A DNA stretch of 64,000 nucleotides from Streptomyces sp. NBC_01478 (GTDB lineage Bacteria; Actinomycetota; Actinomycetes; Streptomycetales; Streptomycetaceae), in the NCBI RefSeq assembly GCF_036227225.1, contig NZ_CP109444.1, forward strand, positions 11,327,501 through 11,391,500. Direction: 5' to 3'. This document shows positions 8,601 to 50,681 of the stretch, piece after piece (the first letter of the stretch is position 1; the number at the start of each line of letters is the position of its first letter). The translations under genes were made by a program, and so were the position numbers. The notes under the pieces were generated by a model, which saw nothing but the letters and a program-made list of their open reading frames with translations, was not told where the DNA came from and made no database searches.

Positions 8601-8627
8601 GACACCGGCGGGCTCGCGGATGTGACA
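8601..8627 (-). promoter_or_regulatory. ECF41-type promoter for the CMD-sigma operon
   Basis: On the minus strand TGTCACA (8627-8621), 16 nt, then TGTC (8604-8601). It ends 46 nt before the GTG of the CMD gene. It fits the ECF41/SigJ promoter pattern (-35 TGTCACA, -10 CGTC) and the other sites in this window. Confidence 0.65.
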
Positions 8628-8695
8628 CCGGGACGAAGATCGGCAAAGGCCCGTCAGGACGACTGACGCCCCCGGCTCGGGGTACTCACCGCTCC

Positions 8696-9709
8696 ATGCG
8701 GATGAGCGTGGTGGACGTGGGGTCGAACACGGTTCGGCTCGTGGTGGCGGACCTGGTGGACGGCGTACCCCTCCCCGTGCACACGGCGAAGTGGAAGCTG
8801 CGGCTCTCCGAGCGTGTCGGGCAGCCGTACGGAGAGATCCCCGAGGACTCCGTACGCCACCTCGTGAAGGCGGTGTCCGCCGCCGCGGAGACCGCCCGGC
8901 GATGGGGCGCCGCAGGGCCACTCGCCTTTGCCACGGCGGTCGTTCGCGGCGCGCCGAACCGGCTCGACGTGCTGCGCACGGTGCGTGCCGAGACCGGCGT
9001 ACGGCTGTGCACGCTGCCGGGAGAGGTGGAGGGCGAGCTGACGTTCCTCGGCGCCCGGCGCTGGATGGGCTGGCGCGCGGGGCCGCTGGCCCTGTTCGAC
9101 ATCGGCGGCGGTACCTTCGAAGTCGCCTTCGGGCGGGGCCGGTTGCCCGATTTCGTGGCATCGCTGCCGCTCGGCGCGGGCCGGCTGACCCGGGACTTCC
9201 TCGACGGCCAGGGCCCGCCGCCCGAGCGCGCGGTCAAGGCGCTGCGTCGTGAGGCACGGCACCAACTGCGGGACGTGGCCGCACGGATCCGCTGGGAAGG
9301 GCCCCGGACCACGGTCGTGACGTCCCGTACCTTTCAGCAACTGGCCCGGCTCTGCGGCGCTGCTCCCGGACGCCAAGGTCCCTTTGTGGAAAGGCGGTTG
9401 GCGCGGTCGGAACTGCGCGCGGGCCTCGACCGGCTGGCCGCCCTCGAGGCCTCCGAGCGGGCCCTGCTCCCCGGTGTCTCGGCGCCACGGGCCGCGCAGA
9501 GCCTGGCCGGAGCCGTCGTCGGGCACACGGTCATGAAGCTCACGGGCATCAAGACCGTCACCGTCTGCCCCTGGGGCATCCGTGAAGGAGTGCTGTTGCG
9601 GTACGTCGAGGACGGCGGGTCCTGGTGGACGGAGATGACACGGCACAGCGACGACGCCGTAGCCGCGAGAGCGGTCGCCCTGCGTATCGCCCCGGTTCCG
9701 GGGAGTTGA
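8696..9709 (+). CDS. Ppx/GppA-family phosphatase (exopolyphosphatase-like)
   Basis: A 337-residue protein of the sugar kinase/Hsp70 ATPase fold. The N-terminal phosphate-1 motif VVDVGSNTVRLVVADL and the second phosphate motif LFDIGGGTFEVAFGRG (near residue 137) are intact. It probably hydrolyses polyphosphate or pppGpp and so touches the stringent/phosphate response. It is divergent from the ECF41 operon, with a 141-nt shared upstream region. Length matches the two-domain actinobacterial Ppx forms (about 310-340), which lack the C-terminal HD domain of E. coli Ppx. Confidence 0.88.
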   Translation: MRMSVVDVGSNTVRLVVADLVDGVPLPVHTAKWKLRLSERVGQPYGEIPEDSVRHLVKAVSAAAETARRWGAAGPLAFATAVVRGAPNRLDVLRTVRAETGVRLCTLPGEVEGELTFLGARRWMGWRAGPLALFDIGGGTFEVAFGRGRLPDFVASLPLGAGRLTRDFLDGQGPPPERAVKALRREARHQLRDVAARIRWEGPRTTVVTSRTFQQLARLCGAAPGRQGPFVERRLARSELRAGLDRLAALEASERALLPGVSAPRAAQSLAGAVVGHTVMKLTGIKTVTVCPWGIREGVLLRYVEDGGSWWTEMTRHSDDAVAARAVALRIAPVPGS

Positions 9710-9845
9710 TCCCGGCATCGCCATCGCGCTGGACCAGTCGTCCGACGACGAGGTCATCGTCGTCGACGTACCCTCAACAACGCGGAGCGCAGGGCCTGTT
9801 GAGCGATTCCGCTTCCGGTCGGGGCGAGGGCGTACGGACGTCCCG

Positions 9846-21320: not shown

Positions 21321-21805
21321 GCGATCGACTCCAGCACTTCGGTCGCGCTGAACCTCACGACAAGACGTCGAACGGCCTCTACGGCGAGACCGAGCACAGT
21401 CCCCGCGGCGGCGACACAACCTGCGGCGCTCCACCAGCCCAGCCCGCTCGCCGTGGCGAGCGGGTCGACCAGACCGGCCCCCACCCCCACAAAGAGCAGG
21501 AAGTGGAGCAGGGGCCCGAGCAACGGGAACGCGAGGACGCCGGCGAGCACCATCGGGGCGACGAGGCTTGGTGTCCACACCACGCCGGTGCCCGGCGGTG
21601 GCGAGGAGAGCACCAGCTCGGCCATGGTCCAGGCGGTCAGTGGCCACAGCGCGAACACCACACCCTCGACAAGGCCGGCGGGCAGCAGCAACCCGGCCAC
21701 GAATGTCCGCGACATACCAGGCCGCCCTGCGACCAGCGGCAGGATGCGCCCGGCGGCCTCCGACACCCCGGCGAACAGCAGCAGGACAACGACGGCGAGT
21801 GACAT
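21317..21805 (-). CDS. small integral membrane protein, third gene of the patatin operon
   Basis: A 162-residue, strongly hydrophobic protein with about four membrane spans (MSLAVVVLLLFAGVSEAAG; VAGLLLPAGLVEGVVFALW; LVAPMVLAGVLAFPLLGPLL; a C-terminal AAGTVLGLAVEAV). No family recognised. ATG 21805 overlaps the TGA of the glycosyltransferase gene; a GTG at 21808 is also possible. The overlap with both neighbours means the stoichiometry is probably tied to them, as for a membrane partner or scaffold of the pathway. Confidence 0.7.
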   Translation of the reverse strand: MSLAVVVLLLFAGVSEAAGRILPLVAGRPGMSRTFVAGLLLPAGLVEGVVFALWPLTAWTMAELVLSSPPPGTGVVWTPSLVAPMVLAGVLAFPLLGPLLHFLLFVGVGAGLVDPLATASGLGWWSAAGCVAAAGTVLGLAVEAVRRLVVRFSATEVLESIA

Positions 21806-23031
21806 CACTCAGCCTCGCTGTGCCGGATCGACGGAGCCGACTCACTGACCGAGCCGGCCGTGTGCAGGTACCGTTCGAGTTCGTCGGCGGCGCGCCGATA
21901 TCCCCCCGCCTCGCGCTGCGCGACCTGAAGGGTGCCCGCGGCTGCCCGGAACCGGGATTCGTGCAGCAGGCGCCGGGCGAGGACGCGCACCGAGTCCTCT
22001 GCGACGTCCTGGGTGCGGATCGACAGGCCGGCGCCGAGTTCGACGACGCGCCGGGCCACCATCGGCTGATCGGCGCCCTGCGGGACCACCAGCAGCGGAA
22101 CCCCGGCGTACATGGCCTCGTTGACGCTGTTCATCCCGCCATGGGTGACGAACAGCGCCGCGCGGGCCAGCACCTCCGGTTGCGGCACGGAGCGGCGGGC
22201 GAGCACGTTGGCCGGCAACGGACCCAGCGCCTCGGGATCGGTCTGCCCGGTGGAGACGATCACGGTCCCGCCCAGCGGGGCGAGCGCGGTGGCCAGACCG
22301 CGCAGCAACCGCGGGTCGGCGTTGAACACCGTGCCCAGCGAGGCGTACAGCACCGGATCGCGCAGCCGGTCGGCCGGGAACGACGGGTCGACCGGCCGGG
22401 CACCGATGCTCGGGCCGACGAACCGGTAGGACCGGTCGAAGTCCTCGACGGCGGGCTGGAACGCCCGTGACGTATAGACCAGGTTGAGCGGCTGACGGAT
22501 GTTCGCCACGTCGAGCAGGGGCAACGCGCGTGCGTCGAAGCGGCGGTGCAGCGCCCAGCGGGACCGCAGGTAGCCCTGGACAGTACGGGGCTGAGCCGTC
22601 GCCGCAGTCAGCAGGTCCCAGGAGCCACGAGTGGGGCTGGGGACATGCCGGTTGAGGGCGAACGTGGTGAACGAGGAGGCGGCCGGCACCCCGAGTTCGC
22701 GGGCGGCCACCGCGGCCCACAGACAGGCACTGTCGTGGACGATCAGATCGGGTCGGTCGCGGCGCAGATCGGTGAGCACGGCGGGCAGCAGGCGGACGGC
22801 GGTGCTCGCGAGCGACTCCATCCACGAGACCGGCGTCGGCGGATCGGGGAGCGGCTGGTCGCCCCCGGGGTACAGGTACACCCTCGCGCCGGTCGCCTCG
22901 ATCTCCGTACGGAACGCGGGCGTGGTGTGATAAGTGACGGTGTGGCCGCGCCGGACGAGCTCGGCAACGACCGGCAGTGTCGGGTTGATGTGCCCGTGCA
23001 TGCCGATACTGAGGAACGCGATGGTGCTCAC
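21805..23031 (-). CDS. UDP-glycosyltransferase (macrolide-glycosyltransferase type, GT1)
   Basis: A 408-residue GT-B enzyme. The N-terminal acceptor domain opens with IAFLSIGMHGHINPTLPVV. The C-terminal nucleotide-sugar domain has VLYASLGTVF and the donor-binding signature VTHGGMNSVNEAMYAGVPLL with VVPQGADQ after it. Normal length for MGT-like enzymes. GTG 23031 overlaps the stop of the patatin gene (GTGA). It should transfer a sugar to a hydrophobic acceptor; with the lipase upstream, a lipid or polyketide-like acceptor is plausible but not proven. Confidence 0.9.
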   Translation of the reverse strand: MSTIAFLSIGMHGHINPTLPVVAELVRRGHTVTYHTTPAFRTEIEATGARVYLYPGGDQPLPDPPTPVSWMESLASTAVRLLPAVLTDLRRDRPDLIVHDSACLWAAVAARELGVPAASSFTTFALNRHVPSPTRGSWDLLTAATAQPRTVQGYLRSRWALHRRFDARALPLLDVANIRQPLNLVYTSRAFQPAVEDFDRSYRFVGPSIGARPVDPSFPADRLRDPVLYASLGTVFNADPRLLRGLATALAPLGGTVIVSTGQTDPEALGPLPANVLARRSVPQPEVLARAALFVTHGGMNSVNEAMYAGVPLLVVPQGADQPMVARRVVELGAGLSIRTQDVAEDSVRVLARRLLHESRFRAAAGTLQVAQREAGGYRRAADELERYLHTAGSVSESAPSIRHSEAE

Positions 23032-24026
23032 AGGCCGACCCCCGCCGTGGAAGAAATCGATGTCTCGCCCGGACTTGTGCAGGTCGCCGAAGAGTCGTTG
23101 ACCCGGTACAACCCCGGCCCGTTGATGTGTAGTTCGTCCAGGAAGCGCCCCGCCGTGCGGCATGCGGTGCTGATCAGCCGTTGGGAGTGGCCGAAGTCCC
23201 ACGGTGCGGGCCAGTCCTCGATGCCGGTCGGCAGCACGACGGTCGGAATGTGCTGGGCCACCTCACGCAGGTCACGCTCGATCTGGTGGTGCAACAGGAG
23301 CAGCCCTGCCCTGGCAGCGATCGCACCTGCACGTCGGCGCGTACTGGTGGGGCGCAACGGCGAGCTCTCCGGCCCCGTCGTCACCACCACCACGCTGGCC
23401 GCCCCGGCCTGCCGGGCCGCCAGTACCGGGACGTAGGCGATCACCCCGCCGTCGACGAGTGTCCGGCCCGCACGATCCACGGGGGGCAGCATCCCGGGAA
23501 TGGCCGCGCTGGCCAGCAGTGCGGACTGGAGGTCTCCTCGGTCGAGCAGCACTGGGGCGCCGGTGACCAGGTCCATGGCCACCGCGGTGAACGGGACCGC
23601 CAACTGCTCGATCCGCGAGGGCAGTTCAGCCCGGGCGATCAGTCGACGCAGGCCGCGATCGGTGAAGACGCTGGTCCGTGAGGACAGGTAGCCGAGCGGA
23701 TACACGTCACGGCGACGCAGTTGGGTCCACACGTGGTCCAACCACGGCGCGGCCCTGTCGGGGTGGGCGGCCGCGATGGCGCCGTTCAGGGCGCCCACCG
23801 ATGTTCCGATGATCATGTCCGGGACGAATCCACGGCGTTCCAGCGCGTACCCGACACCGATGTGCGCCGCTCCGAGCACACCACCGGCGCCCACCACCAC
23901 GGCCACGGGACGGGGGAGGGAGCGCAGACCCGCCGCGATCGGGTTTCCGGGCGGTCGGCCCGGGTCGACTCCACTGAAGCCGGAGTATTCCGATGAGACC
24001 GGTCTCCGGCGACGAGCAACCCTCAT
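23028..24026 (-). CDS. patatin-like phospholipase
   Basis: A 332-residue RssA-type patatin. Oxyanion glycine loop VGAGGVLGAAHIG, nucleophile elbow IIGTSVGALNGAI (Ser in GTSVG) and catalytic DGG (TLVDGGVIAYVP), so the Ser-Asp dyad is complete. The ATG at 24026 has GAGAAAGG 7-8 nt upstream; the frame extends to a TTG at 24032. First gene of a four-gene overlapping operon with a TGTCACA-type promoter at 24077-24103. It likely deacylates a lipid; the patatin-glycosyltransferase coupling is unusual. Confidence 0.88.
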   Translation of the reverse strand: MRVARRRRPVSSEYSGFSGVDPGRPPGNPIAAGLRSLPRPVAVVVGAGGVLGAAHIGVGYALERRGFVPDMIIGTSVGALNGAIAAAHPDRAAPWLDHVWTQLRRRDVYPLGYLSSRTSVFTDRGLRRLIARAELPSRIEQLAVPFTAVAMDLVTGAPVLLDRGDLQSALLASAAIPGMLPPVDRAGRTLVDGGVIAYVPVLAARQAGAASVVVVTTGPESSPLRPTSTRRRAGAIAARAGLLLLHHQIERDLREVAQHIPTVVLPTGIEDWPAPWDFGHSQRLISTACRTAGRFLDELHINGPGLYRVNDSSATCTSPGETSISSTAGVGL

Positions 24027-24076: not shown

Positions 24077-24103
24077 GACCGGACTGCCGCACCATGTGTG
24101 ACA
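24077..24103 (-). promoter_or_regulatory. ECF41-type promoter for the patatin/glycosyltransferase operon
   Basis: On the minus strand TGTCACA (24103-24097), 16 nt, GGTC (24080-24077), followed by CTAG. It ends 50 nt before the patatin ATG. Same spacing as the other sites in the window. The -35 sits inside a 41-nt inverted repeat. Confidence 0.65.
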
Positions 24104-24771: not shown

Positions 24772-25215
24772 TCAGTCGGTGGGGCGCGGGGCGCGGAGAT
24801 GGGCCCGCTGGGCCAGTTCCTCCTTCTCGACCAGTTCGAGCATGGGTTTGCCCGGTGCGCACAGCATCGTCACGACGAACCGGGTGCGCGCGTCGGACAG
24901 CGCGTTGCCGTCCTGGTAGTGGATCGGGTCGCCGCCCGGCTCCCAGAACGTCCCGCCCGCCTCGACCACGCGCTCGGGCTCGCCCTCCATCTCGAAGCGG
25001 ACGGCGCCCTCGAGGACGTAACCGAACGCCGGTCCCGAGTGGCGGTGCGGCGGGCTTCCCGGGTCTCCGGGCTCCCACTCGACGAAAATGGTCATCCCCG
25101 ACGCGCCCTCGGGGACGGTGAGCGGTGCGGTCTCCTGCACCATCTTCGCTGCCGTCTTCCATCCCTCCGGGTGGGTCTGCGGTTCGGTGCCGTGCGTTGT
25201 GTCCGTGTTCGACAT
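24772..25215 (-). CDS. cupin-domain protein, paralogue of 49885-50325
   Basis: A 147-residue single cupin. Motif 1 is PGSPPHRHSGPAFGYVLEG (His-x-His, with Gly/Tyr where many cupins have Glu) and motif 2 is FWEPGGDPIHYQDGNALSD with one His. The C-terminal RAHLRAPRP is shared word for word with the cupin at 49885. Both have an ECF41-type promoter, so they look like duplicated members of one regulon. Probably metal-binding; catalytic role unknown. It is divergent from the NmrA-like gene at 25427. Confidence 0.85.
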   Translation of the reverse strand: MSNTDTTHGTEPQTHPEGWKTAAKMVQETAPLTVPEGASGMTIFVEWEPGDPGSPPHRHSGPAFGYVLEGAVRFEMEGEPERVVEAGGTFWEPGGDPIHYQDGNALSDARTRFVVTMLCAPGKPMLELVEKEELAQRAHLRAPRPTD

Positions 25216-25271: not shown

Positions 25272-25298
25272 GACCGGGTTCCGGACGGATCTGTGACA
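25272..25298 (-). promoter_or_regulatory. ECF41-type promoter for the cupin at 24772
   Basis: On the minus strand TGTCACA (25298-25292), 16 nt, GGTC (25275-25272). Its -35 forms an inverted repeat with the -35 of the divergent promoter at 25315-25341 (TGTGACAC...GTGTCACA). Confidence 0.65.
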
Positions 25299-25314: not shown

Positions 25315-25341
25315 TGTCACAACGTTGGTGGGAGTCCTGTC
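25315..25341 (+). promoter_or_regulatory. ECF41-type promoter for the NmrA-like gene at 25427
   Basis: TGTCACA (25315-25321), 16 nt, TGTC (25338-25341), then CTAG. It ends 85 nt upstream of the ATG. TGTC as the -10 is shared with the CMD-sigma operon promoter. Confidence 0.65.
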
Positions 25342-25426: not shown

Positions 25427-26167
25427 ATGCGGGTCGTTGTAGCAGGAGCCACTGGTGTGATCGGTTCCAGGACGGTTGCCAGGCTTCGGGACCATGGTGT
25501 GGAGGTCGTGCGCGTATCGCGTCACGAGGGCGTCGACGTCACGACCGGAAAGGGCCTGGCCGAGGCCGTGTGCGGCGCCGATGTGGTGGTGGACGTGACC
25601 GATACGCCCTCCCGCGGGGAGCTGGAGAGCCTGGAGTTCTTCGGCGCTGCGACCCACAACCTGCTGGAGGCGGCGGCGAAGGCGGGCGCGGAACACCACG
25701 TGATCCTGTCCATCGTGGGGGCCGAGCGTCTGCAGGCGGGTTACTTCCGGGCGAAGGCACTGCAGGAGGAACAGGTGCGGCGCTCGCCCATGCCCTACTC
25801 CATCGTGCGCGCCACGCCGTTCTTCGAGTCGGTGGAGTACATGTCGCGCGCGGCGACGTACGGGGACGCCGTCCATGTCGCGCCCGTACTGATCCGCCCG
25901 GTGTCGGCCGACGACGTCGCCGTCGAGATCGCCCATGTCGCCGTGGGACTACCGCTGTTCGGTGTCCTGGAGGTGGCCGGTCCGGAGGAGCACCGCCTCG
26001 ACGACCTCACCGCGAAGCTGCTGGCCGCGCGCGGCTACATGCCGGACGTGGTCTCCGACGCCCACACCCCCTTCTTCGGGGCGACGCTCGGGCAGCGGGC
26101 GCTGCTGCCCCGGGCGGACGCCCATCTGGGGCACGAGACCTTCTCCGAGTGGCTCGCGCGGCGATGA
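25427..26167 (+). CDS. NAD(P)-binding NmrA/SDR-like reductase
   Basis: A 246-residue Rossmann protein of the atypical short-chain (NmrA-like, epimerase) type. The nucleotide motif is [18 protein letters not shown] (GATGVIG), a VVVDVTDTP segment follows, and the substrate region has [11 protein letters not shown] with the active-site-like Tyr/Lys spacing blurred. GGGAAGGGG lies upstream of the ATG. It shares most of its length with the gene at 30912. NmrA/epimerase-like oxidoreductases are a recognised partner type for ECF41 sigma factors, and the promoter at 25315 supports that. Confidence 0.88.
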
Positions 26168-26219: not shown

Positions 26220-28874
26220 ATGAGTGAGCTCGACCAACTACCCGACCAGGACGCCGAGGAGACCGCCGAATGGCAGGCGTCGCTCGACGCCGTCGTGCGG
26301 AACGCGGGGCCGGACCGCGCCGTGTACCTGCTGCGACGCGTGCACGAGTTCGCGGCCCGGTCCGGCGTGTCCCTGCCCGGGCTCCTGACCTCCGACTACA
26401 TCAACACGATCCCGGCGTCGGCGCAGCCCGCCTTTCCCGGTGACGTCGCCATGGAGTCCAGGATCACCGCCCTGAACCGGTGGAACGCGGCGGCGATGGT
26501 GACCCGCGGCGCCCGCTTCGGGCTCGGCGGCCACATATCGACCTATGCCTCGGCGGCCTGGTTGTACGAGATCGGGTTCCACCACTTCTTCCAGGGCAAG
26601 GACGGCGGGGGCGGCTCGGGCGACCAGCTCTACTTCCAGGGGCATGCCTCACCCGGCATCTACGCCCGCGTCTTTCTCGAAGGGCGCCTGAGTGAGGCGC
26701 AGTTGGACGGTTTCCGTCGGGAGGCCGACGGCCATGGACTCCCGTCCTACCCGCACCCCCGACGTCTGCCGTGGCTGTGGGAGTTCCCGACCGTCTCCAT
26801 GGGCCTCGGCCCGCTCGGCGCCATCCACCAGGCCCGGTTCAACCGGTATCTGCACGCCCGGGGCATCAAGGACACCTCCGCATCGCGCGTGTGGGCCTTC
26901 CTCGGGGACGGCGAGACGGACGAGCCGGAATCGACGGCCGCGCTGGCGCTCGCCGCCCGGGAGCAGCTCGACAACCTCACCTTCGTCGTCAACTGCAACC
27001 TCCAGCGCCTGGACGGGCCGGTGCGGCCGAACTCCAAGATCGTGCAGGAGCTGGAGGCCAGGTTCCGCGGAGCGGGCTGGAACGTGGTCAAGTCCCTCTG
27101 GGGCGAGGCCTGGGACCCCGTCCTGGGGCAGGACACCACGGGCGCCCTGGTCCACCGTCTCGGCGAGGTGCCCGACGCCCAGTTGCAGACGTACGCCGCC
27201 CGGGACGCCACGTACATCCGCGATCACTTCTTCACGGGCGACGCGCTCTCCGCTCTCGCCGCCGGGCTGAGCGACAGCCGGCTGACCGACCTGTTCGGCA
27301 GCTCCCGGGGCGGGCACGAACCGCTCAAGGTCTACGCCGCCTACCGGGCAGCCGTCGAGCACCGGGGCGCGCCGACGGTCGTCCTCGCCCAGACGGTGAA
27401 AGGGCACACGCTCGGCTCGGCCTTCGAGTCGCGCAACGCCAACCACCAGATGAAGAAGCTGACCATGGGGCAGTTCCGCGAGATGCGTGACCTGCTCGAA
27501 CTCCCCATCCCCGACAGCGCGTTGAGCGGCGACCTGGTGCCGTACTGGCACCCGGGCGAGAACTCGGAGGAGGTGCGGTACCTGCGCGAGCGACGGGCGG
27601 CGCTGGGCGGTCCCGCCCCGGTGCGCAGGGTGGTCCCGAAACCGCTGAGGCAGCCGTCGGCCCGCGCGTTCGAAACCCTGGAGAAGGGCTTCGGCCATCA
27701 GGAGGTGGCCACCACCATGGCTCTGGTCCGCCTGGTCAAGGACCTGATGCGCGACGAGGAGACGGGACGGCGCTGGGTGCCGATCATCCCGGACGAGGCC
27801 CGCACGTTCGGCATGGAGTCCCTGTTCCCGACGGCCGGGATCTACTCGCCGGACGGCCAGACCTACGAACCGGTCGACGCGGACCAGTTGCTGTACTACC
27901 GGGAGGCCAAGAACGGCCAGCTGATCGACGAAGGCATCACCGAAGCCGGTTCCATGGCCGAGTTCACCGCCGCGGCGACCTCGTACGCCACCCACGGCGA
28001 ACCCATGATCCCGTTCTACATCTTCTACGCCATGTTCGGTTTCCAGCGCACCGGCGACCAGTTCTGGGCGCTCGCCGACCAGATGGGGCGTGGGTTCGTC
28101 ATCGGGGCGACGGCGGGCCGCACCACGATGACGGGCGAGGGACTTCAGCACGCCGACGGCCACTCCCAGCTGCTGGCGTCCACGAATCCGGCCGCCGTGT
28201 CCTACGACCCGGCCTTCGCGTACGAGATCGCGGTGATCGTGCGGGAGGGGCTGCGCCGTATGTACGGTGACCGGCCCGAGGACGTCTTCTACTACCTGAC
28301 GGTCTACAACGAACCCAAGGAGCAGCCGGCGATGCCCGCCGGACCGGGCGTCGAGGAAGGCATCGTGCGGGGCATCTACCTGTTCCGACAGGCCGAGCCC
28401 GCTGTGACAGGACGACGAATCCAGCTACTGGCCTCCGGTACGGCCATCCACTGGGCGCTCGGCGCCCAGGAGTTGCTGCTGTCCCAGTGGGGCGTCCACG
28501 CCGACGTCTGGTCGGTGACGTCCTGGACGGAGCTGCGACGCGATGCGTTGGACACCGACCGGGCACGGCTGCGAGGTGAGGAACGCGTTCCCTTTGTGAC
28601 GGCGGCGCTGGCGGACGCGCCCGGGCCGGTGCTGGCGGTCAGCGACTGGATGCGGCAGGTGCCCGACCAGATCAGCCAGTGGGTCGGCCACGACTACTCG
28701 TCGCTGGGAACGGACGGCTTCGGGCTGTCGGACACCCGGGACGCCGTACGGCGCTACTTCCACGTGGACGCGGAGTCGATCGTCGTCGCCGCCCTGGACG
28801 GGTTGGCGCGTGCCGGCGCGATCGGTCCGGAGACGGTCGTGCGGGCGCGCGACCGGTATGGATGGCGCGGGTGA
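26220..28874 (+). CDS. aceE: pyruvate dehydrogenase E1 component, homodimeric (AceE)
   Basis: An 884-residue thiamine-diphosphate enzyme that decarboxylates pyruvate and acetylates the lipoyl group of E2. The TPP motif is complete ([11 protein letters not shown] ... [20 protein letters not shown]), and the pyrimidine-domain elements [17 protein letters not shown] and [13 protein letters not shown] are typical of AceE. Length is normal (about 890). ATG 26220 has ACAGGA upstream, and the gene starts 52 nt after the NmrA-like gene, so they may be co-transcribed. No E2 or E3 gene is near; it would need those encoded elsewhere. It is probably a second, stress-linked aceE copy (inference). Confidence 0.93.
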
Positions 28875-30837: not shown

Positions 30838-30864
30838 TGTCACAAACAAAGCCGGTGCCCGGTC
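30838..30864 (+). promoter_or_regulatory. ECF41-type promoter for the NmrA-like gene at 30912
   Basis: TGTCACA (30838-30844), 16 nt, GGTC (30861-30864). It ends 47 nt before the ATG. Confidence 0.65.
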
Positions 30865-36238: not shown

Positions 36239-36922
36239 CTAATATTCGACGAACGTGACCGTCTCATCGAGCGGCGCCCTGCCCGTACGGGCGTGGTCGA
36301 TCGAGACGTCCTCGTATCCGATCGACATGCCGCAGAAGAGCATGAGCTCGTCCGGCGGTGCCAGGACCTCCGCGACGCTCCTGCGGAACTTCGCCCACGC
36401 CATCTGCGGGCAACTGTGCAGCCCCTCGGCGCGGAGCAGCAGCATGACGGTCTGCAGATACATGCCGGCGTCGGACCACTGGGCCGGGCCCAGATCGCGG
36501 TCGATGTAGCAGAACAGGGCGGTGGGCGCACCGAAACAGTCCCAGTTCGCGGAAGCGCCCCTCTGGCGCGCCTCCACGTCCTCGCGCGGAATGCCGAGTG
36601 CGCCGTAGCGCTGCTCACCGAAGGCGGACCGACGCTCGTGGTAGGGGGATTTGAGTGCGGGCGGGTACTGCTCGTACTCCGGTTCGTCCCAGACGTCACC
36701 CGCGGCTAATCGCTTGCCGGCGTTCTTCTTGAGCCTGGCCAGTGGCCCGCCGGTCACCACATAGGCGCGCCACGGCTGGATGTTCGATCCGGACGGCGCC
36801 CAAGCCGCAGCGGACAACACGCGCTCCAGCACCTCCCTCGGGACAAGCCGGTCGGTGAATCCGCGCACCGCCCGGCGGCTCGTGACCGCCTCGTAGACGT
36901 CCAAGATCGCCCACCTCCCCAT
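36239..36922 (-). CDS. nitroreductase-family FMN oxidoreductase with a TTA codon
   Basis: About 227 residues. FMN-binding features: SRRAVRGFTDRLVPREVLE, AAWAPSGSNIQPWRAYVV and PQMAWAKF with a later GMSIGYED. Reduces nitro groups, quinones or flavins with NAD(P)H. Start at ATG 36922; a TTG just downstream after GGGGAGG is also possible. It contains a TTA leucine codon (36709-36707, in KRLAAG), the codon read by the developmental tRNA bldA in Streptomyces, so translation may be growth-phase dependent. It is 56 nt downstream of qcrB on the same strand, likely one operon. Confidence 0.88.
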   Translation of the reverse strand: MGRWAILDVYEAVTSRRAVRGFTDRLVPREVLERVLSAAAWAPSGSNIQPWRAYVVTGGPLARLKKNAGKRLAAGDVWDEPEYEQYPPALKSPYHERRSAFGEQRYGALGIPREDVEARQRGASANWDCFGAPTALFCYIDRDLGPAQWSDAGMYLQTVMLLLRAEGLHSCPQMAWAKFRRSVAEVLAPPDELMLFCGMSIGYEDVSIDHARTGRAPLDETVTFVEY

Positions 36923-36978
36923 CTGGTCAACGCGTCGGCTTCGGTTCCGACGTGCCGCAGGCTCGAGAACGGGTCTGG

Positions 36979-38577
36979 TCACCGGTGAACTCCTTTGACC
37001 GGAGTTTTCTTGTCCTTGTATTCCTGCACCGTCGGTTTGGTGATCTGCGCCCCCTCGCCGTACAGGCTTTTGCTGAGCCGGGCACGCAGTTGCCGGGAAA
37101 GGCGGAACACGGTGTTCGGATTCGCCGCTCCGTTCGCTGTGCCAGGGTCGATCGGCCGGTACTGCTCATGCTGGGTGAGAAGGTGGAGTTGCTCCTGACC
37201 GAGCGGCTGGTGCACCTCGACGAATTCGCCGTCGGGGAGGCGTTTGATGATGCCGGTCTCGCGTCCGTGGAGTACCTTTTCGCGGTCGCCGCGCTGAAGT
37301 CCGAGTGCCCATCGTTTCGTCACGGAGTACGCCGCGACGGGCACGACGAACAGACCGATGCGGACGGCCCACGTCACCGACTCGACCGGGACATGGAAGC
37401 GGACGGCGATGATGTCGTTCCCGGCGCCGATCAGGGCCACCGCGTAGAAACTGAGCCAGGAGACGCCAAGTGCCGTGCGCACCGGCCGATTTCGGGGTCG
37501 GTCCAGCAGGTTCTGCTCGCGTGCGTCCCGGGTCACCCAGGACTCGATGAACGGATACACGCCCAGGGCGAGGAAGAAGCCGACACCCGCGGTGAGCGGA
37601 ATCAGGTTGTCGAGCGCCAGGGTGTGACCCCAGAAGGTGATCTCCCAGCCCGGCATCACCCGCAGCAGCCCGTCCGCCACGCCCATGTACCAGTCGGGCT
37701 GCGACCCGGCCGAGACCTGGTCGGCACGGTAAGGCCCGTACTGCCAGACGGGGTTGATCTGCGCGATCGCGGCGACGACGAAGACGGTGCCGGTCACCAG
37801 CAGGAAATACCCGGCGGACTTGACCGCACGTACCTTGGCCGGCACGCCCACGACATTGCCGTTGGTGCGGCCACGGCCCGGGTACTGGGTGTGCCCGTGG
37901 TGGAGCACCAGGGCCAGATGCGCGGTCACGAGTGCCACCATGAGGGCGGGGATGAGCAGCACATGGATGGTGTTGAAGCGCGCCACCAGGTCATGGCCCG
38001 GGAACTCGCCCCCGAAGAGGAACATCGACAGATACGTTCCGACGATGGGGACGGACAGGATCGTTCCGTTCACGACGGCGAGGCCGGTCCCGGAGAGCAG
38101 ATCGTCCGGGAGGTCGTATCCCGTCAGTCCCGCGAACATGGCGAGGACCAACAGCAGGAATCCGAACAGCCAGTTGACCTCGCGCGGCTTGCGGAAGGCG
38201 CCCGTGAAGAACACCCGCATCATGTGCGCGAGCAGGGAGGCCACGAAGACCAGCGCCGCCCAGTGGTGGGCCTGCCGGATCAGCAGACCGCCGCGCACGT
38301 CGAAGGAAATGCGCAGGGTCGACGCGAACGCCTCCGACATCATCTGGCCGCGCAGCGGTACGTAACTGCCGTCGTACCGCACCTCGTTCATCGACGGATG
38401 GAAGTAGAAGGTCAGATACACGCCCGTGACGACGAGAATCACGAAACTGTAGAGGCAGATCTCCCCGAGCAGGAACGACCAGTGGTCCGGAAAAGCCCGT
38501 CGGGCCTTTTCTCTGACGAGGCGGGGGACGCCCAGTCGTCCGTTTGCCCAATCGGCCACCCTTTCACCCTTGCCCAT
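36979..38577 (-). CDS. cytochrome bc1-type cytochrome b subunit (QcrB-like), orphan copy
   Basis: A 532-residue membrane protein with the actinobacterial QcrB layout. Haem ligands appear as two pairs: RQAHHWAALVFVASLLAHMM and HVLLIPALMVALVTAHLALV. The quinone-site loop (PGWEITFWGHTLALDNLIP) follows. Length is normal (about 540). The usual partners qcrC and qcrA are absent, and it follows a whiB gene by 14 nt instead. So it is probably a second copy used under particular conditions, or it works with other electron carriers such as the downstream nitroreductase. The start may also be GTG 38595. Confidence 0.92.
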   Translation of the reverse strand: MGKGERVADWANGRLGVPRLVREKARRAFPDHWSFLLGEICLYSFVILVVTGVYLTFYFHPSMNEVRYDGSYVPLRGQMMSEAFASTLRISFDVRGGLLIRQAHHWAALVFVASLLAHMMRVFFTGAFRKPREVNWLFGFLLLVLAMFAGLTGYDLPDDLLSGTGLAVVNGTILSVPIVGTYLSMFLFGGEFPGHDLVARFNTIHVLLIPALMVALVTAHLALVLHHGHTQYPGRGRTNGNVVGVPAKVRAVKSAGYFLLVTGTVFVVAAIAQINPVWQYGPYRADQVSAGSQPDWYMGVADGLLRVMPGWEITFWGHTLALDNLIPLTAGVGFFLALGVYPFIESWVTRDAREQNLLDRPRNRPVRTALGVSWLSFYAVALIGAGNDIIAVRFHVPVESVTWAVRIGLFVVPVAAYSVTKRWALGLQRGDREKVLHGRETGIIKRLPDGEFVEVHQPLGQEQLHLLTQHEQYRPIDPGTANGAANPNTVFRLSRQLRARLSKSLYGEGAQITKPTVQEYKDKKTPVKGVHR

Positions 38578-38591: not shown

Positions 38592-38852
38592 TCACAGATC
38601 GCTCGGGCAGGGTTGCGCCCGCTGAGTATCGAGTCCGCGCATCGCACGGCGTTCCCATTCCGTCGTTCCGCCCCAGATGCCGTCCGCCTGCCCCACTCGT
38701 ACGGCCCATTCGAGACACTGCTCCGCGACGGGACAACGGCCGCACACGGCCTTCGCCTCGTCGATCTGCCGAAGTAGGGGACCGCTGTTCGATATGGGGA
38801 AGAAGAGCTCGGGGTCTACGTGCAGGCAAGCTGCCCGTTCACGCCATTGCAT
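38592..38852 (-). CDS. WhiB-like iron-sulfur transcription factor
   Basis: An 86-residue Wbl protein. Four Cys ligands for a [4Fe-4S] cluster: one in RAACLHVDPELFFP and three in VCGRCPVAEQCLEWA; the GIWGGTTEWERR turn and basic tail follow. ATG 38852 has GAGGTG 9 nt upstream. It is the first gene of a whiB-qcrB-nitroreductase unit. Wbl clusters sense oxygen or NO, so it may tune its own respiratory operon. An ECF41-type promoter precedes it. Confidence 0.93.
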   Translation of the reverse strand: MQWRERAACLHVDPELFFPISNSGPLLRQIDEAKAVCGRCPVAEQCLEWAVRVGQADGIWGGTTEWERRAMRGLDTQRAQPCPSDL

Positions 38853-38904: not shown

Positions 38905-38931
38905 GACCGGGCAGCCGCCGTATGTGTGACA
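38905..38931 (-). promoter_or_regulatory. ECF41-type promoter for whiB-qcrB
   Basis: On the minus strand TGTCACA (38931-38925), 16 nt, GGTC (38908-38905). It ends 52 nt before the whiB ATG. A divergent copy begins 20 nt away. Confidence 0.65.
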
Positions 38932-38950
38932 CACGGTCGCGGCGAGCCCG

Positions 38951-38977
38951 TGTCACAAGATCCGGGGGGTCCCGGTC
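38951..38977 (+). promoter_or_regulatory. ECF41-type promoter for the sigma factor at 39040
   Basis: TGTCACA (38951-38957), 16 nt, GGTC (38974-38977), then TTAG. It ends 62 nt before the ATG. Back-to-back with the whiB promoter. Confidence 0.65.
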
Positions 38978-39039: not shown

Positions 39040-39918
39040 ATGGACCAGGGCGATGCGGTACCGATCGCCGAGCTGTGGGAGGAGCGTCGGTTCCTGCTCG
39101 ATGTCGCCCGCTGGATGCTGGGTGACCCGGGTGCGGCGGAGAGCGTCGTCGACGAGGCGTATCAGCGGTGGTACGGGCTGTCCGACGCGGCGCGCCGACA
39201 GATCACCGTCCCCCGGTCCTGGCTGGCGAAGACCGTGGGTGGAATCTGCCTGGGCCGGCTCGCACTGCCCGGCCGGGGCGCGGCCGGCCCGGAGGTGGAG
39301 GATGGACGGCCGTCGGAGGTGGAGGAGGAGGCCGGCCGGGTCGTACTGAACGCGCTGGAGTCGTTGTCGACGGCCGAGCGCGCGGCGTTCGTGCTCCGCG
39401 CTTTCGGTTTGGCGCCGGGCGCGGTCGCCGACATCGTGGGCCGCACGGAGCCCGAGCTCGCCGAGCTCGCCGAACGGGCCAGGCAGTGGCTGCAGTTGCA
39501 GCGCACCCGCTCCACAACGCCACAACAGCATGACGCCGCCGTCCGCGCTGTGTGCCGGGCGTGCGTCACGGAAGACGGCGAACTGCTCACGTCGTTGCTG
39601 TGTCCGGACGTCACGGCGTTCTTCGACGGGGGCGGCAAGGTGCGGGCACTGACCGGACCGGTCCACGGCAGTCGGCCGGTCACCGACAGTCTGCTGACCC
39701 TCCTGGCCCGCCGCCCACGCACCACGTTGACGACCCATTCCGTCAACGGCCGGACCGGCCTCGTCGCCCGCTACGGCCGCCAGGTCGCCGCCGTCATCAG
39801 CCTCGACGTCGCGAACGACCGGGTCGCCCAGCTCTGGGTCATGCTCAATCCCGACAAACTTCGATCCTGGAACCAGCCCCGCACCGACGGTGGCGCAGGC
39901 TCGGTCGCGAGCCCGTGA
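39040..39918 (+). CDS. ECF41-type sigma factor, divergent sigma-2 region
   Basis: A 292-residue sigma factor; GAGGGAGG lies 7 nt before ATG 39040. Region 2 is divergent (LLDVARWMLGDPGAAESVVD) and the WLPEP linker is missing, replaced by an acidic segment (PEVEDGRPSEVEEEAG). Region 4 has LSTAERAAFVLRAFGLAPGA. The SnoaL domain is complete and ends in VMLNPDKL, the ECF41 hallmark. So the regulatory domain is intact while the core is atypical. Predicted to be autoregulated from the promoter at 38951. Convergent with the next sigma gene, 25 nt apart. Confidence 0.82.
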   Translation: MDQGDAVPIAELWEERRFLLDVARWMLGDPGAAESVVDEAYQRWYGLSDAARRQITVPRSWLAKTVGGICLGRLALPGRGAAGPEVEDGRPSEVEEEAGRVVLNALESLSTAERAAFVLRAFGLAPGAVADIVGRTEPELAELAERARQWLQLQRTRSTTPQQHDAAVRAVCRACVTEDGELLTSLLCPDVTAFFDGGGKVRALTGPVHGSRPVTDSLLTLLARRPRTTLTTHSVNGRTGLVARYGRQVAAVISLDVANDRVAQLWVMLNPDKLRSWNQPRTDGGAGSVASP

Positions 39919-39943: not shown

Positions 39944-40879
39944 TCACACACCGTCCGGCACGGCGTCGAGGGACCTCGCGAGACGGGAACGCGAATCGAG
40001 GAAGCCGGCGATCTTGCTCGGAGTGAACACCCACAGCACCTGGTGAATGCCGTACTTCGAGGCGGTGGCGGTCATGAAAGCGAGGGTCCGCCCGTCCCGG
40101 CGGACCAGCACGCCCGTAGCACCGTTGGCATCGACCAGCTCGAGCTCCGCCTCCCGCCAGAGGTGCCGATAGGCCGAGAGTCTGGCCACCCGGGCGCGGC
40201 CCAGCACGGGCACCCGGGCACAGCCCCGCATTCCGTTGCCGTCGGAGAGGCTGACGACACCGGGTGCGAGCAGGGCCTCCAGTGATGCCACGTCTCCCGT
40301 CCGGGCCGCTGAGACGAAGGCGGTCAGCAGGCGTCGGTGCTCGGCCGCGTCCACGCTCTCCCGTCGCTCGTCCAGCAGGTGACGACGAGCACGGCTCACG
40401 ATCTTCCGCACATTGACGACGCTGAGTTCGAGCATGTCGGCGATCTCGGCGTAGGCGTAGTCGAACGCCTCACGGAGTACATAGACGGCACGCTCGACGG
40501 GAGTCAGCTTCTCCAGCACCAGCAGCAGGGCCAGCTCCACCGCCTCAGCGCGCTGAGCACCGACCTCCGGGTCCGCGCTCGTGTCGACTGGCTCCGGCAG
40601 CCACGGTCCGATGTACGTCTCCCGGCGCACGCGCGCCGACTGCGCGACGTTGATGGCCAGACGAGTCGTCGCGCTCGAAAGGAAGCCCGCGGGATTGGCC
40701 ACCACCGAGCGGTCGGTCTTCTGCCAGCGCAGCCACACCTCCTGGACCACGTCCTCGGCCTCGACCGCGCTGCCGAGTACGCGGTAGGCGATCCCGAAGA
40801 GCCGCTTGCGATGGAGTACGAAGACGGCGACGGCCCCGTCGAGATCGTCGGGTGGGGTGGGGGACGGTTCGACATACAT
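39944..40879 (-). CDS. ECF sigma factor (SigJ/ECF41-like) with SnoaL domain
   Basis: A 311-residue sigma factor. Region 2: RLFGIAYRVLGSAVEAEDVV, then QEVWLRW. Linker: GPWLPEPVDTSADPEVGA. Region 4: LTPVERAVYVLREAFDYAYA with SVVNVRKIVSRARRHL. The SnoaL-like domain runs to the end (VLWVFTPSKIAGF), where TPSKI replaces the NPDKL motif. ATG 40879 has GGAGG 10 nt upstream; the longer frame to 41107 overlaps the divergent gene. A TGTCACA-N16-GGTC promoter precedes it, implying autoregulation or cross-control. Confidence 0.9.
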   Translation of the reverse strand: MYVEPSPTPPDDLDGAVAVFVLHRKRLFGIAYRVLGSAVEAEDVVQEVWLRWQKTDRSVVANPAGFLSSATTRLAINVAQSARVRRETYIGPWLPEPVDTSADPEVGAQRAEAVELALLLVLEKLTPVERAVYVLREAFDYAYAEIADMLELSVVNVRKIVSRARRHLLDERRESVDAAEHRRLLTAFVSAARTGDVASLEALLAPGVVSLSDGNGMRGCARVPVLGRARVARLSAYRHLWREAELELVDANGATGVLVRRDGRTLAFMTATASKYGIHQVLWVFTPSKIAGFLDSRSRLARSLDAVPDGV

Positions 40880-40919: not shown

Positions 40920-40946
40920 GACCGCGGCCGACTGGTGCCTGTGACA
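40920..40946 (-). promoter_or_regulatory. ECF41-type promoter for the sigma factor at 39944-40879
   Basis: On the minus strand TGTCACA (40946-40940), 16 nt, GGTC (40923-40920), then TATG. It ends 40 nt before the ATG. Confidence 0.65.
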
Positions 40947-41540: not shown

Positions 41541-41921
41541 TCAGTGCGACGATCCCAGGATCACCACGACGCAGACGGTCATCGCGAGGGTGATCAGGAC
41601 CATGGCGGTGAGTGTTCCCCGCAGCCATTGTCGGATCCGGACCTGGTGCTGCGCCTCCATCGCGTCGACGCGCTCGGCGATGTGGTCGGTCACCATGCGG
41701 GCGACGTGTCTCTGCTCATCGACGTACCACCTTCCGATGTCCCGCTTCTGCTCGGGAGTGAGCCCCTCCACGCGCGCGGTGAGGGCCGCCACGCGGCGGT
41801 GCGTCGCTCCCATGTGAGCCTCCTGGTACAGGTAGCCCTCGATGTCGGGCAGGCCGCGAGCGGCCTCCTCGCGTGCGGCCATGGCGTACCCCCGGTGGAA
41901 ACGAGAACCCCACATGGTCAT
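41541..41921 (-). CDS. small C-terminally anchored membrane protein, NDH-2 partner
   Basis: A 126-residue protein: a soluble helical part (RVAALTARVEGLTPEQKRDI, His/Arg-rich) and a single C-terminal membrane helix (TAMVLITLAMTVCVVVIL). GGAAGG is 9 nt before ATG 41921, which overlaps the NDH-2 stop by four bases (ATGA). Such coupling suggests it helps place or regulate the dehydrogenase. Family unknown. Confidence 0.7.
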   Translation of the reverse strand: MTMWGSRFHRGYAMAAREEAARGLPDIEGYLYQEAHMGATHRRVAALTARVEGLTPEQKRDIGRWYVDEQRHVARMVTDHIAERVDAMEAQHQVRIRQWLRGTLTAMVLITLAMTVCVVVILGSSH

Positions 41922-43273
41922 GCCGAACTGCCTTCCTTCGCCCGGTCGGCCTCCGGGTCCTGGGTGCGCCCGTTCGTGACGAAGGCGTCCCGCGGATGCT
42001 GCACGGAGGCGAGGGAGACGAGGTCCCGGCCCGTCAGGGCCGCCGTGAGCCAGACCGCCAGGACGCGGATCTTCCGCTCCCAACTGGGCACCGCCAGCAC
42101 GTGATAGCCCCGGTGCATCAGCCAGGCCGGGAAGCCCTTGATGACGATGCCCTTGTACTGGAAGATGCCCCGCCCGAGCCCCAGCGTCGCCACCACGCCC
42201 AGGCTGCCGTGGCGGTAGTCCCGCACGCGCCGCCCGCGCAGATCGGCCACGAGGTTCCTGGCGAGGAGCCTGCCCTGTCGTACGGCGTGCTGGGCGTTCG
42301 GCACCGTGCGGGCGCCCGGTACCGGCGAGGCCAGGTCGGGCACGGTCGCGTCGTCCCCGGCCGCCCACACGTCCGGCACCGGTGCGCTGTCCGTGCCCAC
42401 GCGCAGATCGGGCCGGACCAGCAGCAGGCCGCGCTCGTCGACCGGCAGGTCCGTGTGGTTGTGCACGACCGGGTTCGAGGCGTTGCCTGCGGCCCAGACG
42501 ATCAGCGTGGAGTCGTACTCCTGGCCGTCGGAGAGGACGACGTGGCCGTCCTCGGCGGACAGCAACTGCGTGTTCAGGTGGACGTGCGCGCCACGGCGTT
42601 CCAGGTGGCGCACCACCCACGCACCCGGCCTGTCGCTCACCTCGGGCAGGATGCGGCCGCGGGCCTCGACGAGGTGGAACGACAGGTCGTCCAGGGCCAG
42701 TTCGGGATAGGACTTGAGCATCGCGGTCGCCAGCGACAGCAGTTCGCCGAAGCCCTCGACGCCGGAGAACCCGCCTCCGACGAACGTGACGGTGAGCAGC
42801 TTTCGCCGCTCGGGGCCGGGCAGCAGCGACGCGGCCTGGTCGAACGCGGTCATCAGCCGGTCCCGGATCGCCACGGCCTCCTCCACGTGCTTGAGACCGA
42901 TGGCCCGCTGCGCGAGTCCGGGGATCGGGAAGGTACGGGTCACGGCACCGGCGGTGACCACGAGGATGTCGTAGCGCAGCTCGTAGGCGTCGCCGCGCAC
43001 CGGGCGGACGGTCACCGTACGGTCCGCGTCACGGATCTCGGTCACGGTCCCCGCGATCAGCCGGGTACGGCCGAGATGGCGCCGCAGCGAGACGACGGCG
43101 TGCCGTGCCTCCACCGAACCGGCCGCCACCTCCGGCAGGAACGGCTGATAGGTCATGTACGGGCGCGGGTCGACGACCGTGACCCGCGCCTCACCCGGAC
43201 GCAGCCTCTTCTGCAGACCCCATGCGGTGTAGAAGCCCGCGTAGCCGCCGCCGACGATCAGAATCTGTCGCAT
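41918..43273 (-). CDS. ndh: type II NADH dehydrogenase (NDH-2)
   Basis: A 451-residue FAD enzyme that feeds electrons from NADH to quinone without pumping protons. The FAD motif is ILIVGGGYAGFYTAWGL, the NADH motif VTFVGGGFSGVEGFGELLSL and the second FAD contact VWAAGDDATVPDLASP; the quinone-site-like block PNAQHAVRQGRLLARNL is present. ATG 43273 has AGAGGG upstream. Read from an ECF41-type promoter, with a small membrane protein as second gene. With qcrB nearby it could form part of an alternative respiratory chain. Confidence 0.92.
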   Translation of the reverse strand: MRQILIVGGGYAGFYTAWGLQKRLRPGEARVTVVDPRPYMTYQPFLPEVAAGSVEARHAVVSLRRHLGRTRLIAGTVTEIRDADRTVTVRPVRGDAYELRYDILVVTAGAVTRTFPIPGLAQRAIGLKHVEEAVAIRDRLMTAFDQAASLLPGPERRKLLTVTFVGGGFSGVEGFGELLSLATAMLKSYPELALDDLSFHLVEARGRILPEVSDRPGAWVVRHLERRGAHVHLNTQLLSAEDGHVVLSDGQEYDSTLIVWAAGNASNPVVHNHTDLPVDERGLLLVRPDLRVGTDSAPVPDVWAAGDDATVPDLASPVPGARTVPNAQHAVRQGRLLARNLVADLRGRRVRDYRHGSLGVVATLGLGRGIFQYKGIVIKGFPAWLMHRGYHVLAVPSWERKIRVLAVWLTAALTGRDLVSLASVQHPRDAFVTNGRTQDPEADRAKEGSSA

Positions 43274-43306: not shown

Positions 43307-43333
43307 GACCGCGCAGGCCGCGCCGATGTGACA
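43307..43333 (-). promoter_or_regulatory. ECF41-type promoter for the NDH-2 operon
   Basis: On the minus strand TGTCACA (43333-43327), 16 nt, GGTC (43310-43307), then TACG. It ends 33 nt before the ATG. Confidence 0.65.
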
Positions 43334-49831: not shown

Positions 49832-49884
49832 AGTGGCCCCCTTCGAGAACTGCCGTGACGAACTCAGCGTCTCCGAGCGGTGGT

Positions 49885-50325
49885 TCAGTCGGCGGAAGGC
49901 CGCGGGGCACGCAGATGGGCCCGCTTCTCCAGCTCGTCCTCGTCGACCGGCGTGAGCATCGGCCGGCCGGGGGCGCCCAACATGACGACGACGTACTTGG
50001 CCGGCGTGTCCGACAGGGCGTTGCCGTTCTGGTAATGGATCACGTCACCGCCCGGCTCCCAGAACGTCTCACCGGCCTTGATCACACGCTCGGGCTCGCC
50101 TTCGAGTTCCCACCGGACGGCACCTTCGGCGACGTAGCCGAGACACGGCCCCGAGTGCCGATGCGGTGGCGTACCGGGATGGCCCGGCGGCCACTCGACC
50201 AGCACGGTCATCGCCGAAGCACCCTCCGGCACGAAGGGCGGCCTGACGTTCGCCAGCATCCTGGGGCCGGTCGCTTGCCGGCCCTCGCGCTCGCCGTTGC
50301 CGCCCGTTGATTCCGTCTCCAACAC
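49885..50325 (-). CDS. cupin-domain protein, paralogue of 24772-25215
   Basis: A 146-residue single cupin; GTG 50325 with GGAGG about 11 nt upstream. PGTPPHRHSGPCLGYVAEG and FWEPGGDVIHYQNGNALSD match the paralogue almost residue by residue, as does the ending RAHLRAPRP. Both have TGTCACA-N16-GGTC promoters. They may bind the same metal or ligand in two branches of the regulon. Confidence 0.87.
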   Translation of the reverse strand: MLETESTGGNGEREGRQATGPRMLANVRPPFVPEGASAMTVLVEWPPGHPGTPPHRHSGPCLGYVAEGAVRWELEGEPERVIKAGETFWEPGGDVIHYQNGNALSDTPAKYVVVMLGAPGRPMLTPVDEDELEKRAHLRAPRPSAD

Positions 50326-50681
50326 CGTGTGACACCTCCGTCAATCTGCTTGCCTCACGGGAGGAGACCGGGCACGGCCCGCATGTGTGACACGGCGGGC
50401 GGACGAAATCCAGGACGCAGTCGAATGACTCAAGCAACTCGACGCCGGATCGCGGAAGCTGAGGCAGTCCCTGGATCGGCAGCGAACCGTCACCTTCGGG
50501 GTGCCGAAGCCACCTGCCCGGCGTTCCGGATGGTGATGAGCCGACTCTCCTTCCTTTCCTTCACATGGCAAAACAACGTTAGGAACCACACCATGTTTCT
50601 CCTTTTCGTCGACCTGGAGCGGTCAGGTGGACACACACGTCGCCACGCGCCCCACGAGTTCGACCGCGTGGACGGTGCCGC
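50326..50681. other. divergent region between cupin and glucokinase genes
   Basis: 356 nt without a gene. It holds the cupin promoter (50366-50392). The half nearer the glucokinase gene is AT-richer than average (around 50555-50610), likely its promoter, with no clear operator. Confidence 0.45.
50366..50392 (-). promoter_or_regulatory. ECF41-type promoter for the cupin at 49885
   Basis: On the minus strand TGTCACA (50392-50386), 16 nt, GGTC (50369-50366). It ends 40 nt before the start. A second TGTCACA overlaps the cupin ribosome site but has no -10. Confidence 0.65.

Follow-up and report, generated by a model that had tools for sequence, protein, structure and literature searches.

We analysed a 64-kb window (64,000 nucleotides, C1:11327501-11391500) of Streptomyces sp. 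NBC_01478, whose 12.12-Mb genome is a single contig, C1; coordinates are positions in this window unless they are prefixed with C1. The window holds an array of promoter-like sites with the pattern TGTCACA-N16-[GT]GTC, of the kind used by ECF41-type extracytoplasmic function (ECF) sigma factors, together with four ECF41-derived open reading frames, where an earlier sequence-only reading of this DNA had counted three and overlooked 32335-33009. The exact pattern occurs 10 times, compared with an expectation of 0.07 (100 dinucleotide shuffles, largest count 1), and an eleventh site at 29830-29856 has one mismatch. All eleven coordinates and strands given in that reading hold, and so does its range of 30-105 nt to a gene start: from the GTC to the start codon of the assigned gene we measure 33-102 nt.

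Ten of the eleven sites lie in an island that extends from about 21.8 to 50.4 kb of the window. All sites were scored with two matrices from which the window was excluded: an island matrix (212 distinct sites from 39 loci with a relative of sigma A, the sigma factor at 39944) and a canonical matrix (16 sites from loci with the unit of another sigma factor, 7107). The sites and genes of the island are as follows.

24077..24103, minus strand: island-class site, 50 nt before the patatin gene (matrix scores 33.1 island, -2.6 canonical)
23028..24026, minus strand: patatin-like phospholipase gene (PF01734; start checked)
21805..23031, minus strand: EryCIII-like glycosyltransferase gene (PF06722/PF00201; GTG start at 23031), likely in one operon with the patatin gene
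25272..25298, minus strand: island-class site, 56 nt before cupin A (pattern and matrix)
24772..25215, minus strand: cupin A gene (PF07883)
25315..25341, plus strand: island-class site (TGTC), 85 nt before NmrA1, back to back with the 25272 site
25427..26167, plus strand: NmrA/epimerase-like gene 1, NmrA1 (PF13460 and PF01370)
26220..28874, plus strand: pyruvate dehydrogenase (PDH) E1-like gene (PF17831), likely in an operon with NmrA1; own site in 1/10 island relatives
28871..29638, plus strand: methyltransferase-like gene (PF08242 just under the cut-off), likely in an operon with NmrA1
29830..29856, plus strand: weak island-class site with one mismatch (CGTCACA), 102 nt before Ohr (matrix score 14.3)
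29959..30456, plus strand: Ohr organic hydroperoxide resistance gene (PF02566; TIGR03561 above cut-off)
30838..30864, plus strand: island-class site, 47 nt before NmrA2; 27-mer identical in the second island
30912..31658, plus strand: NmrA-like gene 2, NmrA2 (PF13460)
32335..33009, minus strand: SnoaL-less ECF41-derived sigma (PF04542 and PF08281); no upstream site
38905..38931, minus strand: island-class site, 52 nt before WhiB (pattern and matrix)
38592..38852, minus strand: WhiB-family regulator gene (PF02467)
36979..38577, minus strand: QcrB, cytochrome b of the bc1 complex (NF050120, 724.9 over 500)
36239..36982, minus strand: nitroreductase-family gene (PF00881)
38951..38977, plus strand: island-class site, 62 nt before P, back to back with the 38905 site
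39040..39918, plus strand: P, ECF41-derived, with no WLPEP, a degenerate sigma-4 and an intact NPDKL-SnoaL; nearest solved structure SigJ 5xe7
40920..40946, minus strand: island-class site, 40 nt before sigma A (pattern and matrix)
39944..40879, minus strand: sigma A, a complete ECF41-like sigma and proposed driver; tail to tail with P, 25 nt apart
43307..43333, minus strand: island-class site, 33 nt before the NDH-2-like gene (pattern and matrix)
41918..43273, minus strand: NDH-2-like pyridine nucleotide-disulfide oxidoreductase gene (PF07992; start checked)
50366..50392, minus strand: island-class site, 40 nt before cupin B (pattern and matrix)
49885..50325, minus strand: cupin B gene (PF07883)

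The Ohr assignment made earlier is secure (TIGR03561, 120.7 bits, cut-off 88.85). The gene then called NDH-2 is a pyridine nucleotide-disulfide oxidoreductase and NDH-2-like by PF07992, but it falls below every NCBIfam cut-off; its start at 43273 was preferred over 43303, which would leave just 3 nt after the site. The two back-to-back divergent pairs of sites (25272-25341 and 38905-38977) have 16 and 19 nt between them, and 49 divergent pairs less than 150 nt apart are seen among 343 sites in 67 loci.

The eleventh site, at 8601, had been read as a member of the array, and the matrix scores place it in a different promoter class. It scores 49.3 with the canonical and 13.3 with the island matrix (36.0 bits toward canonical), and the remaining ten (24077-50392) favour the island matrix by 15.6 to 46.5 bits. 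As a group the ten island sites have the extended -10 CCCGGTC, and the 8601 site has CGGTGTC. The nine exact island sites score 23.7-35.5 with the island matrix; the one-mismatch Ohr site scores only 14.3, and because of this low score its membership rests on the relatives of Ohr described below. TGTCAC[AG]-N16 ending in CGGTGTC is found at 17 of the 18 loci with a 7107 relative of at least 72% identity (the window's own locus counted), and a search at E 1e-90 finds 7107 relatives in 56 of 121 genomes, many of them without the island. On the matrix scores and this conservation we exclude the 8601 site from the array. Because its class differs and 7107 relatives are often without the island, it is, judged by these comparisons, the promoter of an ordinary ECF41-CMD unit that lies near the island. 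Sigma 7107 itself exceeds the cut-offs of both SigX4 (345.1, cut-off 323.25) and SigJ (310.5, cut-off 271), has a CMD partner and has TGTC as the -10 of its promoter. The unit comprises three features.

8601..8627, minus strand: canonical ECF41 promoter of the CMD-7107 unit, outside the island, 46 nt before CMD (matrix and 17/18 loci)
7970..8554, minus strand: CMD gene of the unit (PF02627; start checked)
7107..7973, minus strand: canonical ECF41/SigJ-type sigma of the unit (SigX4 and SigJ above cut-off)

The enrichment search that the sequence-only reading had proposed gives 17 exact matches in the genome: 10 in the window, five at C1:7948272-7955511 and two elsewhere, with none for the reversed pattern. 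The two isolated matches, C1:8123091 and C1:11174756, were rejected as island promoters (island scores only 7.8 and 12.6), and the group of five forms a second island, 3.4 Mb from the window. By this exact-pattern search the island-class sites are confined to the two islands, and the regulon that had been called local is literally so in this genome. With spacers of 13-19 and NGTC allowed genome-wide, 23 of the 68 matches listed fall at N16 (17 with G or T, six with A or C) and there is no other peak; the reversed control of this looser pattern gives 25. Two segments are nearly the same in both islands: 30607-31664, with NmrA2 and its promoter, is 98.8% identical to C1:7949862-7950919, and 41916-43333, with the NDH-2-like gene and its promoter, is 98.4% identical to C1:7954094-7955511. 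Other matching parts have 67-92% identity, and this difference indicates, at the level of sequence, that gene-plus-promoter units were recently copied or converted between the islands.

Of the 262 sites examined at 47 loci, 198 are followed within 5-150 nt by a called gene start (14.8% at random), and 29 fall in the core of a gene (66% at random). Gene starts were called with a simple GC-frame script, and because the caller is so simple we give more weight to counts of target genes by homology, scored over 68 island loci by whether an exact site stands in the roughly 330 nt upstream (background 5.0% in random 360-nt stretches and 0/3000 in shuffled ones). An exact site precedes the FrdA-like gene in 32/32 cases, WhiB in 25/25, cupin A in 18/19, NmrA1 in 6/6, ferredoxin in 13/15, the NDH-2-like gene in 18/23 (three more with one mismatch), P in 32/49 and Ohr in 5/15 (nine more with one mismatch). 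QcrB, which follows WhiB in the window, has a site in 11/18 cases, and PDH E1, which follows NmrA1, in 1/10. Among the non-target families, no exact site was found at these loci upstream of LAL33268 (0/21), HTH41049 (0/28) and 32335 (0/10), and DUF41541 has one in 1/15. The shuffles, the reversed controls, the peak at N16 only and the placement near gene starts led us to reject a chance origin of the sites.

The islands recur in other genomes. Among 41 related genomes we find 20 sites within 52 kb (G020:C45), eight within 17 kb (G011) and seven within 7.6 kb in a member of another family (G038); in two single-contig genomes, 22 of 26 sites fall within 74 kb (G133) and 21 of 23 within 59 kb (G155). 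When 199 genomes of the genus were searched with a pattern that was slightly more restrictive, 159 gave 0-3 matches and 32 gave five or more. The 27 genomes with a relative of P (E 3.1e-50 or better among the 12 best candidates scored per genome, not counting a partial match in G147) contain a median of 14 sites (range 3-39) and the remaining 172 a median of one (0-26; P = 4.9e-17, Mann-Whitney, uncorrected for kinship).

An alignment scan with sigma A gave at least 80 matches, and those listed fall in 79 loci (L032-L110). A cut at 68% identity divides these into 39 A loci, all from records titled Streptomyces, and 40 B loci of mixed origin. Among these, the A loci have a median of six sites (0-10) and the B loci of two (0-11). 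At N16 the base before GTC in the A loci is G in 189 cases, T in 27, C in three and A in one, and the reversed control gives none; spacers of 12-15 and 17-21 occur one to three times each. A spacer of 11 occurs 39 times, probably through a GTC five bases before the N16 -10. Around the GGTC of A loci, C is common at each of the three preceding bases, T or A after, and G 7 nt on. The comparisons indicate that the distribution of such islands within Streptomyces is patchy and follows that of relatives of 39040 and 39944; the largest have about 20 sites in 50-75 kb. NmrA2 is the gene that most often has the site in B loci (28/36), and the sigma itself never has an exact one there (0/42); because of this, a one-target ECF41-NmrA unit appears to be the older arrangement, and the sequences suggest that the island is an expansion of it.

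Sigma A has PF04542 and PF08281 above cut-off and matches SigJ 5xe7 at E 4e-37. We call it ECF41-like because it scores just below the cut-offs of both SigX4 (317.4, cut-off 323.25) and SigJ (250.8, cut-off 271). The WLPEP linker motif is present in 42/42 members of its family and in 64/67 B proteins, and the A family has the extension and D[GS][GN]G in 42/42; exact NPDKL is found in 0/42 and in 1/67 B proteins. Mean pairwise identity in A (35 loci) is 0.88 for sigma-2, 0.87 for the linker, 0.81 for sigma-4 and 0.72 for SnoaL, and the ratio of nonsynonymous to synonymous substitution rates (dN/dS) of the linker among close relatives is 0.08.

P shows the reverse of this pattern. The window copy has no Pfam match at 1e-3, sigma-2 and sigma-4 included, and its SigX4 score is 137.5 (cut-off 323.25). 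In 57 P proteins longer than 200 aa, WLPEP occurs in none and NPDKL in 54 (looser NPxK[LIFN], 56); sigma-2 and SnoaL are present in all 57, and 13 retain at most 29 of 55 sigma-4 positions. Three further relatives consist of little beyond SnoaL, and the copy in the second island (L018:13399-14157) has 10 of 55 sigma-4 positions, with sigma-2 and SnoaL kept. Mean pairwise identity (35 loci) is 0.64 for sigma-2, 0.20 for the linker, 0.43 for sigma-4 and 0.65 for SnoaL, and dN/dS among close relatives is 0.93 in the linker, 0.25 in sigma-2 and 0.29 in SnoaL. Because WLPEP is gone, much of sigma-4 is often lost and NPDKL is kept, the reverse of what the 39944-type sigmas have, P is probably not a promoter-reading sigma. 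P forms one clade (support 0.999, 14 sequences, tree of chosen sequences). An AlphaFold model (mean pLDDT 77.7, pTM 0.48) has a low-confidence linker, a confident SnoaL and an unreliable placing of the domains; its best structural matches are SigJ 5xe7 and SigG1, followed by epoxide-hydrolase and ketosteroid-isomerase folds, and the C-terminal domain is predicted to have a SnoaL/NTF2-type fold. Where A and P are neighbours, 30 of 34 pairs are arranged tail to tail, ten with overlapping ends, and from this layout their transcripts could pair as antisense where the ends meet or overlap. Of the four A-short neighbours of P, three follow it on the same strand, and the genes of a B sigma and a P relative (35%) share 4 nt in Herbiconiux (L104).

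Sigmas without SnoaL are a further element of the islands. The 32335 protein is without most of the domain; eight such proteins, the window's included, are 214-229 aa long with pairwise dN/dS of 0.20-0.47, and seven short forms of sigma A (A-short) have pairwise dN/dS of 0.17-0.30. Because the A-short proteins stand at several places among A in the tree of chosen sequences, their distribution suggests repeated loss of SnoaL. A frameshift as the cause was rejected, as a SnoaL remnant downstream was found in 0 of 18 rows.

Our best explanation of the whole, to which we give a probability of roughly 0.62 on comparative grounds, is a one-island regulon of an ECF41-type sigma, with sigma A as driver and P tuning A in trans. 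The promoter array with its targets, the linkage of the genes and the decay of domains can be read from the DNA itself; the role of sigma A as driver we infer from them, and docking of P on sigma A in trans we put forward as a hypothesis. Sigma A, perhaps with the SnoaL-less 32335 and in the second island also with a related clade-B sigma, would read TGTCACA-N16-CCCGGTC and turn on the surrounding redox and respiratory genes (NmrA, cupin, NDH-2-like, Ohr and WhiB-QcrB-nitroreductase, and in relatives also the FrdA-like flavoprotein and ferredoxin), as well as itself and its neighbour P. It is a likelier driver than the other two factors named earlier, because 7107 has its own promoter class and the 39040 family is without WLPEP and has a degenerate or shortened sigma-4. 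P, of ECF41 descent and retaining mainly sigma-2 and SnoaL with NPDKL, would restrain or tune sigma A by docking on its WLPEP linker, the same contact that is made within one chain in classical ECF41. We propose that P supplies the key in trans because this contact is known there: in the available excerpts of PMC7730460, NPDKL connects SnoaL to the YVGPWLPEP linker. Judging by its targets, the regulon may respond to redox or respiratory stress. A more specific version is tentative and, in our view, less probable than its negation: that the one-protein ECF41 switch has been split, with the WLPEP keyhole in A or A-short and the SnoaL-NPDKL key in P as a sigma-derived anti-sigma, and that it runs ten to about 20 promoters in units exchanged between islands.

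Several observations weigh against this explanation. Two genomes, G168 (26 sites) and G120 (12), lack a P match among the 12 best candidates scored, and of five sigma-A genomes searched two are without a close P; an obligatory role of P for the array is therefore not borne out. Sigma-4 of P still shows constraint when close relatives are compared (dN/dS 0.35). The looser NPxK[LIFN] is present in 18/42 sigma A and 58/67 B proteins, and the SnoaL lock of these sigmas may, by this motif, still work. The -10 of the sigma A promoters is GGTC and not the published CGTC, although the -35, the spacing and the COE-type genes match ECF41. NmrA2 has an exact upstream site in 29/41 cases and is without one in 12/41, and the A- and B-type sigmas have one in 28/80 and are without in 52/80. 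S. brasiliensis contributes two of the 39 A loci.

The sequence-only reading had sigmas 7107, 39040 and 39944 share one pool of eleven promoters, which we consider improbable. TGTCACA and the 16-nt spacing are indeed common to all eleven, and ECF41-type sigmas may cross-talk at the -35, but the -36.0 bits of the 8601 site against +15.6 to +46.5 for the other ten, the CGGTGTC at 17/18 7107-unit loci, and a P family without WLPEP (57/57) and often without much of sigma-4 (13/57) speak for separate pools; what stands of that proposal is an ECF41-type array with a likely broad regulon. A reading that keeps the island regulon and regards P as a decaying paralogue without regulatory role, sigma A being held by its own SnoaL, is doubtful but deserves more weight. 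It accounts for a P linker that evolves almost freely, for islands or sigma-A genomes without P, and for the SnoaL that sigma A retains with NPxK in 18/42; it sits poorly with the constraint on sigma-2 and SnoaL of P (dN/dS 0.25 and 0.29), their presence in every one of the 57 proteins, NPDKL in 54/57, the exact site at P in 32/49 and its kept place beside A.

The other two alternatives concern the sites themselves, and we give both very little credence. The motif might be an operator for a DNA-binding regulator of the island (LAL, WhiB or HTH protein), since genes of the LAL and HTH types (21 and 28 were examined) are found repeatedly in islands, but it reads in one direction with a constant gap of 16 nt, lies shortly before gene starts, and equals in -35 and spacing the ECF41 promoters mapped by 5'RACE (PMC3426412, in excerpt). 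Against the idea that most sites are non-functional copies hitch-hiking on duplicated gene cassettes, as the two 98.4-98.8% identical gene-plus-promoter segments might suggest, the same gene families retain the site across many loci while spacers vary, and the targets come from many unrelated families.

One ECF41 factor in Azospirillum reportedly has a broader role, in motility (Dubey, 2020). The published ECF41 promoters have a TGTCACA -35, 16-nt spacing and a CGTC -10, with transcripts beginning at G in two other bacteria; a single gene or operon was the general finding for what is controlled, and no phenotype was found (PMC3426412, available sections). S. meliloti RpoE9 is a one-target case (PMC6180224, excerpt). 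The island resembles the ECF41 systems with fused SnoaL (Ecf41Bli, Ecf41Rsp, RpoE9 and SigJ) in its -35, spacing, WLPEP and SnoaL extension, and in its COE-type targets (CMD, oxidoreductase, epimerase/NmrA, sometimes cupin); single ECF41 neighbours include CMD, Pyr_redox, FAD_binding_2, NmrA and cupin classes (same sections of PMC3426412). Unlike the one-target systems in these excerpts, the island counts ten sites in the window, and some relatives about 20; its -10 is GGTC, the sigma has a degenerate paralogue as its neighbour, and sigmas that lack SnoaL are also present. The laboratory truncations Ecf41Bli 1-204 and Ecf41Rsp 1-206 are about 20- and 120-fold more active, and removal of the whole extension abolishes activity (PMC3426412, in part). 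The 32335 family and A-short end at a similar place after sigma-4, by position and not by alignment; unlike the truncations they are natural, recurrent and under purifying selection. SigG1-RsfG (ECF56, Streptomyces tsukubaensis) is likewise a SnoaL-bearing ECF sigma with a separate regulator encoded alongside; however, SigG1 is without NPDKL and of another group, and P is itself a sigma relative, of which nothing of the kind is said of RsfG in the available part of PMC7730460. In the portions available of the ECF41 and ECF sigma literature searched, including PMC3426412, PMC7730460, PMC8999054, PMC9205884 and PMC6180224, we found no description of such islands or of P.

Some Streptomyces thus appear to carry a compact redox and respiration island that shares one promoter and is probably read by an island-encoded sigma, a regulon likely broader than the published rule of one sigma and one target. 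ECF41 factors are widespread, and the islands offer a target set from which signal and function might be read in culturable Streptomyces. If P does act in trans, it would show that a sigma regulator can be derived from a sigma factor itself.

Other genes of the region include three large LAL-type regulators (AAA and LuxR) inside the island, at 33418-36204, 44094-47006 and 47003-49831, none with an upstream site; a LAL-related match at 60030 lies outside it. A gene for an SsgA-like sporulation protein (43388-43840) lies just upstream of the promoter of the NDH-2-like gene. Finally, a sigma A relative (75.9%) is found on a linear 2.35-Mb Streptomyces plasmid typed as mobilizable, NZ_CP109481.1 (L161), of which 40.9 kb were read and contain six sites.

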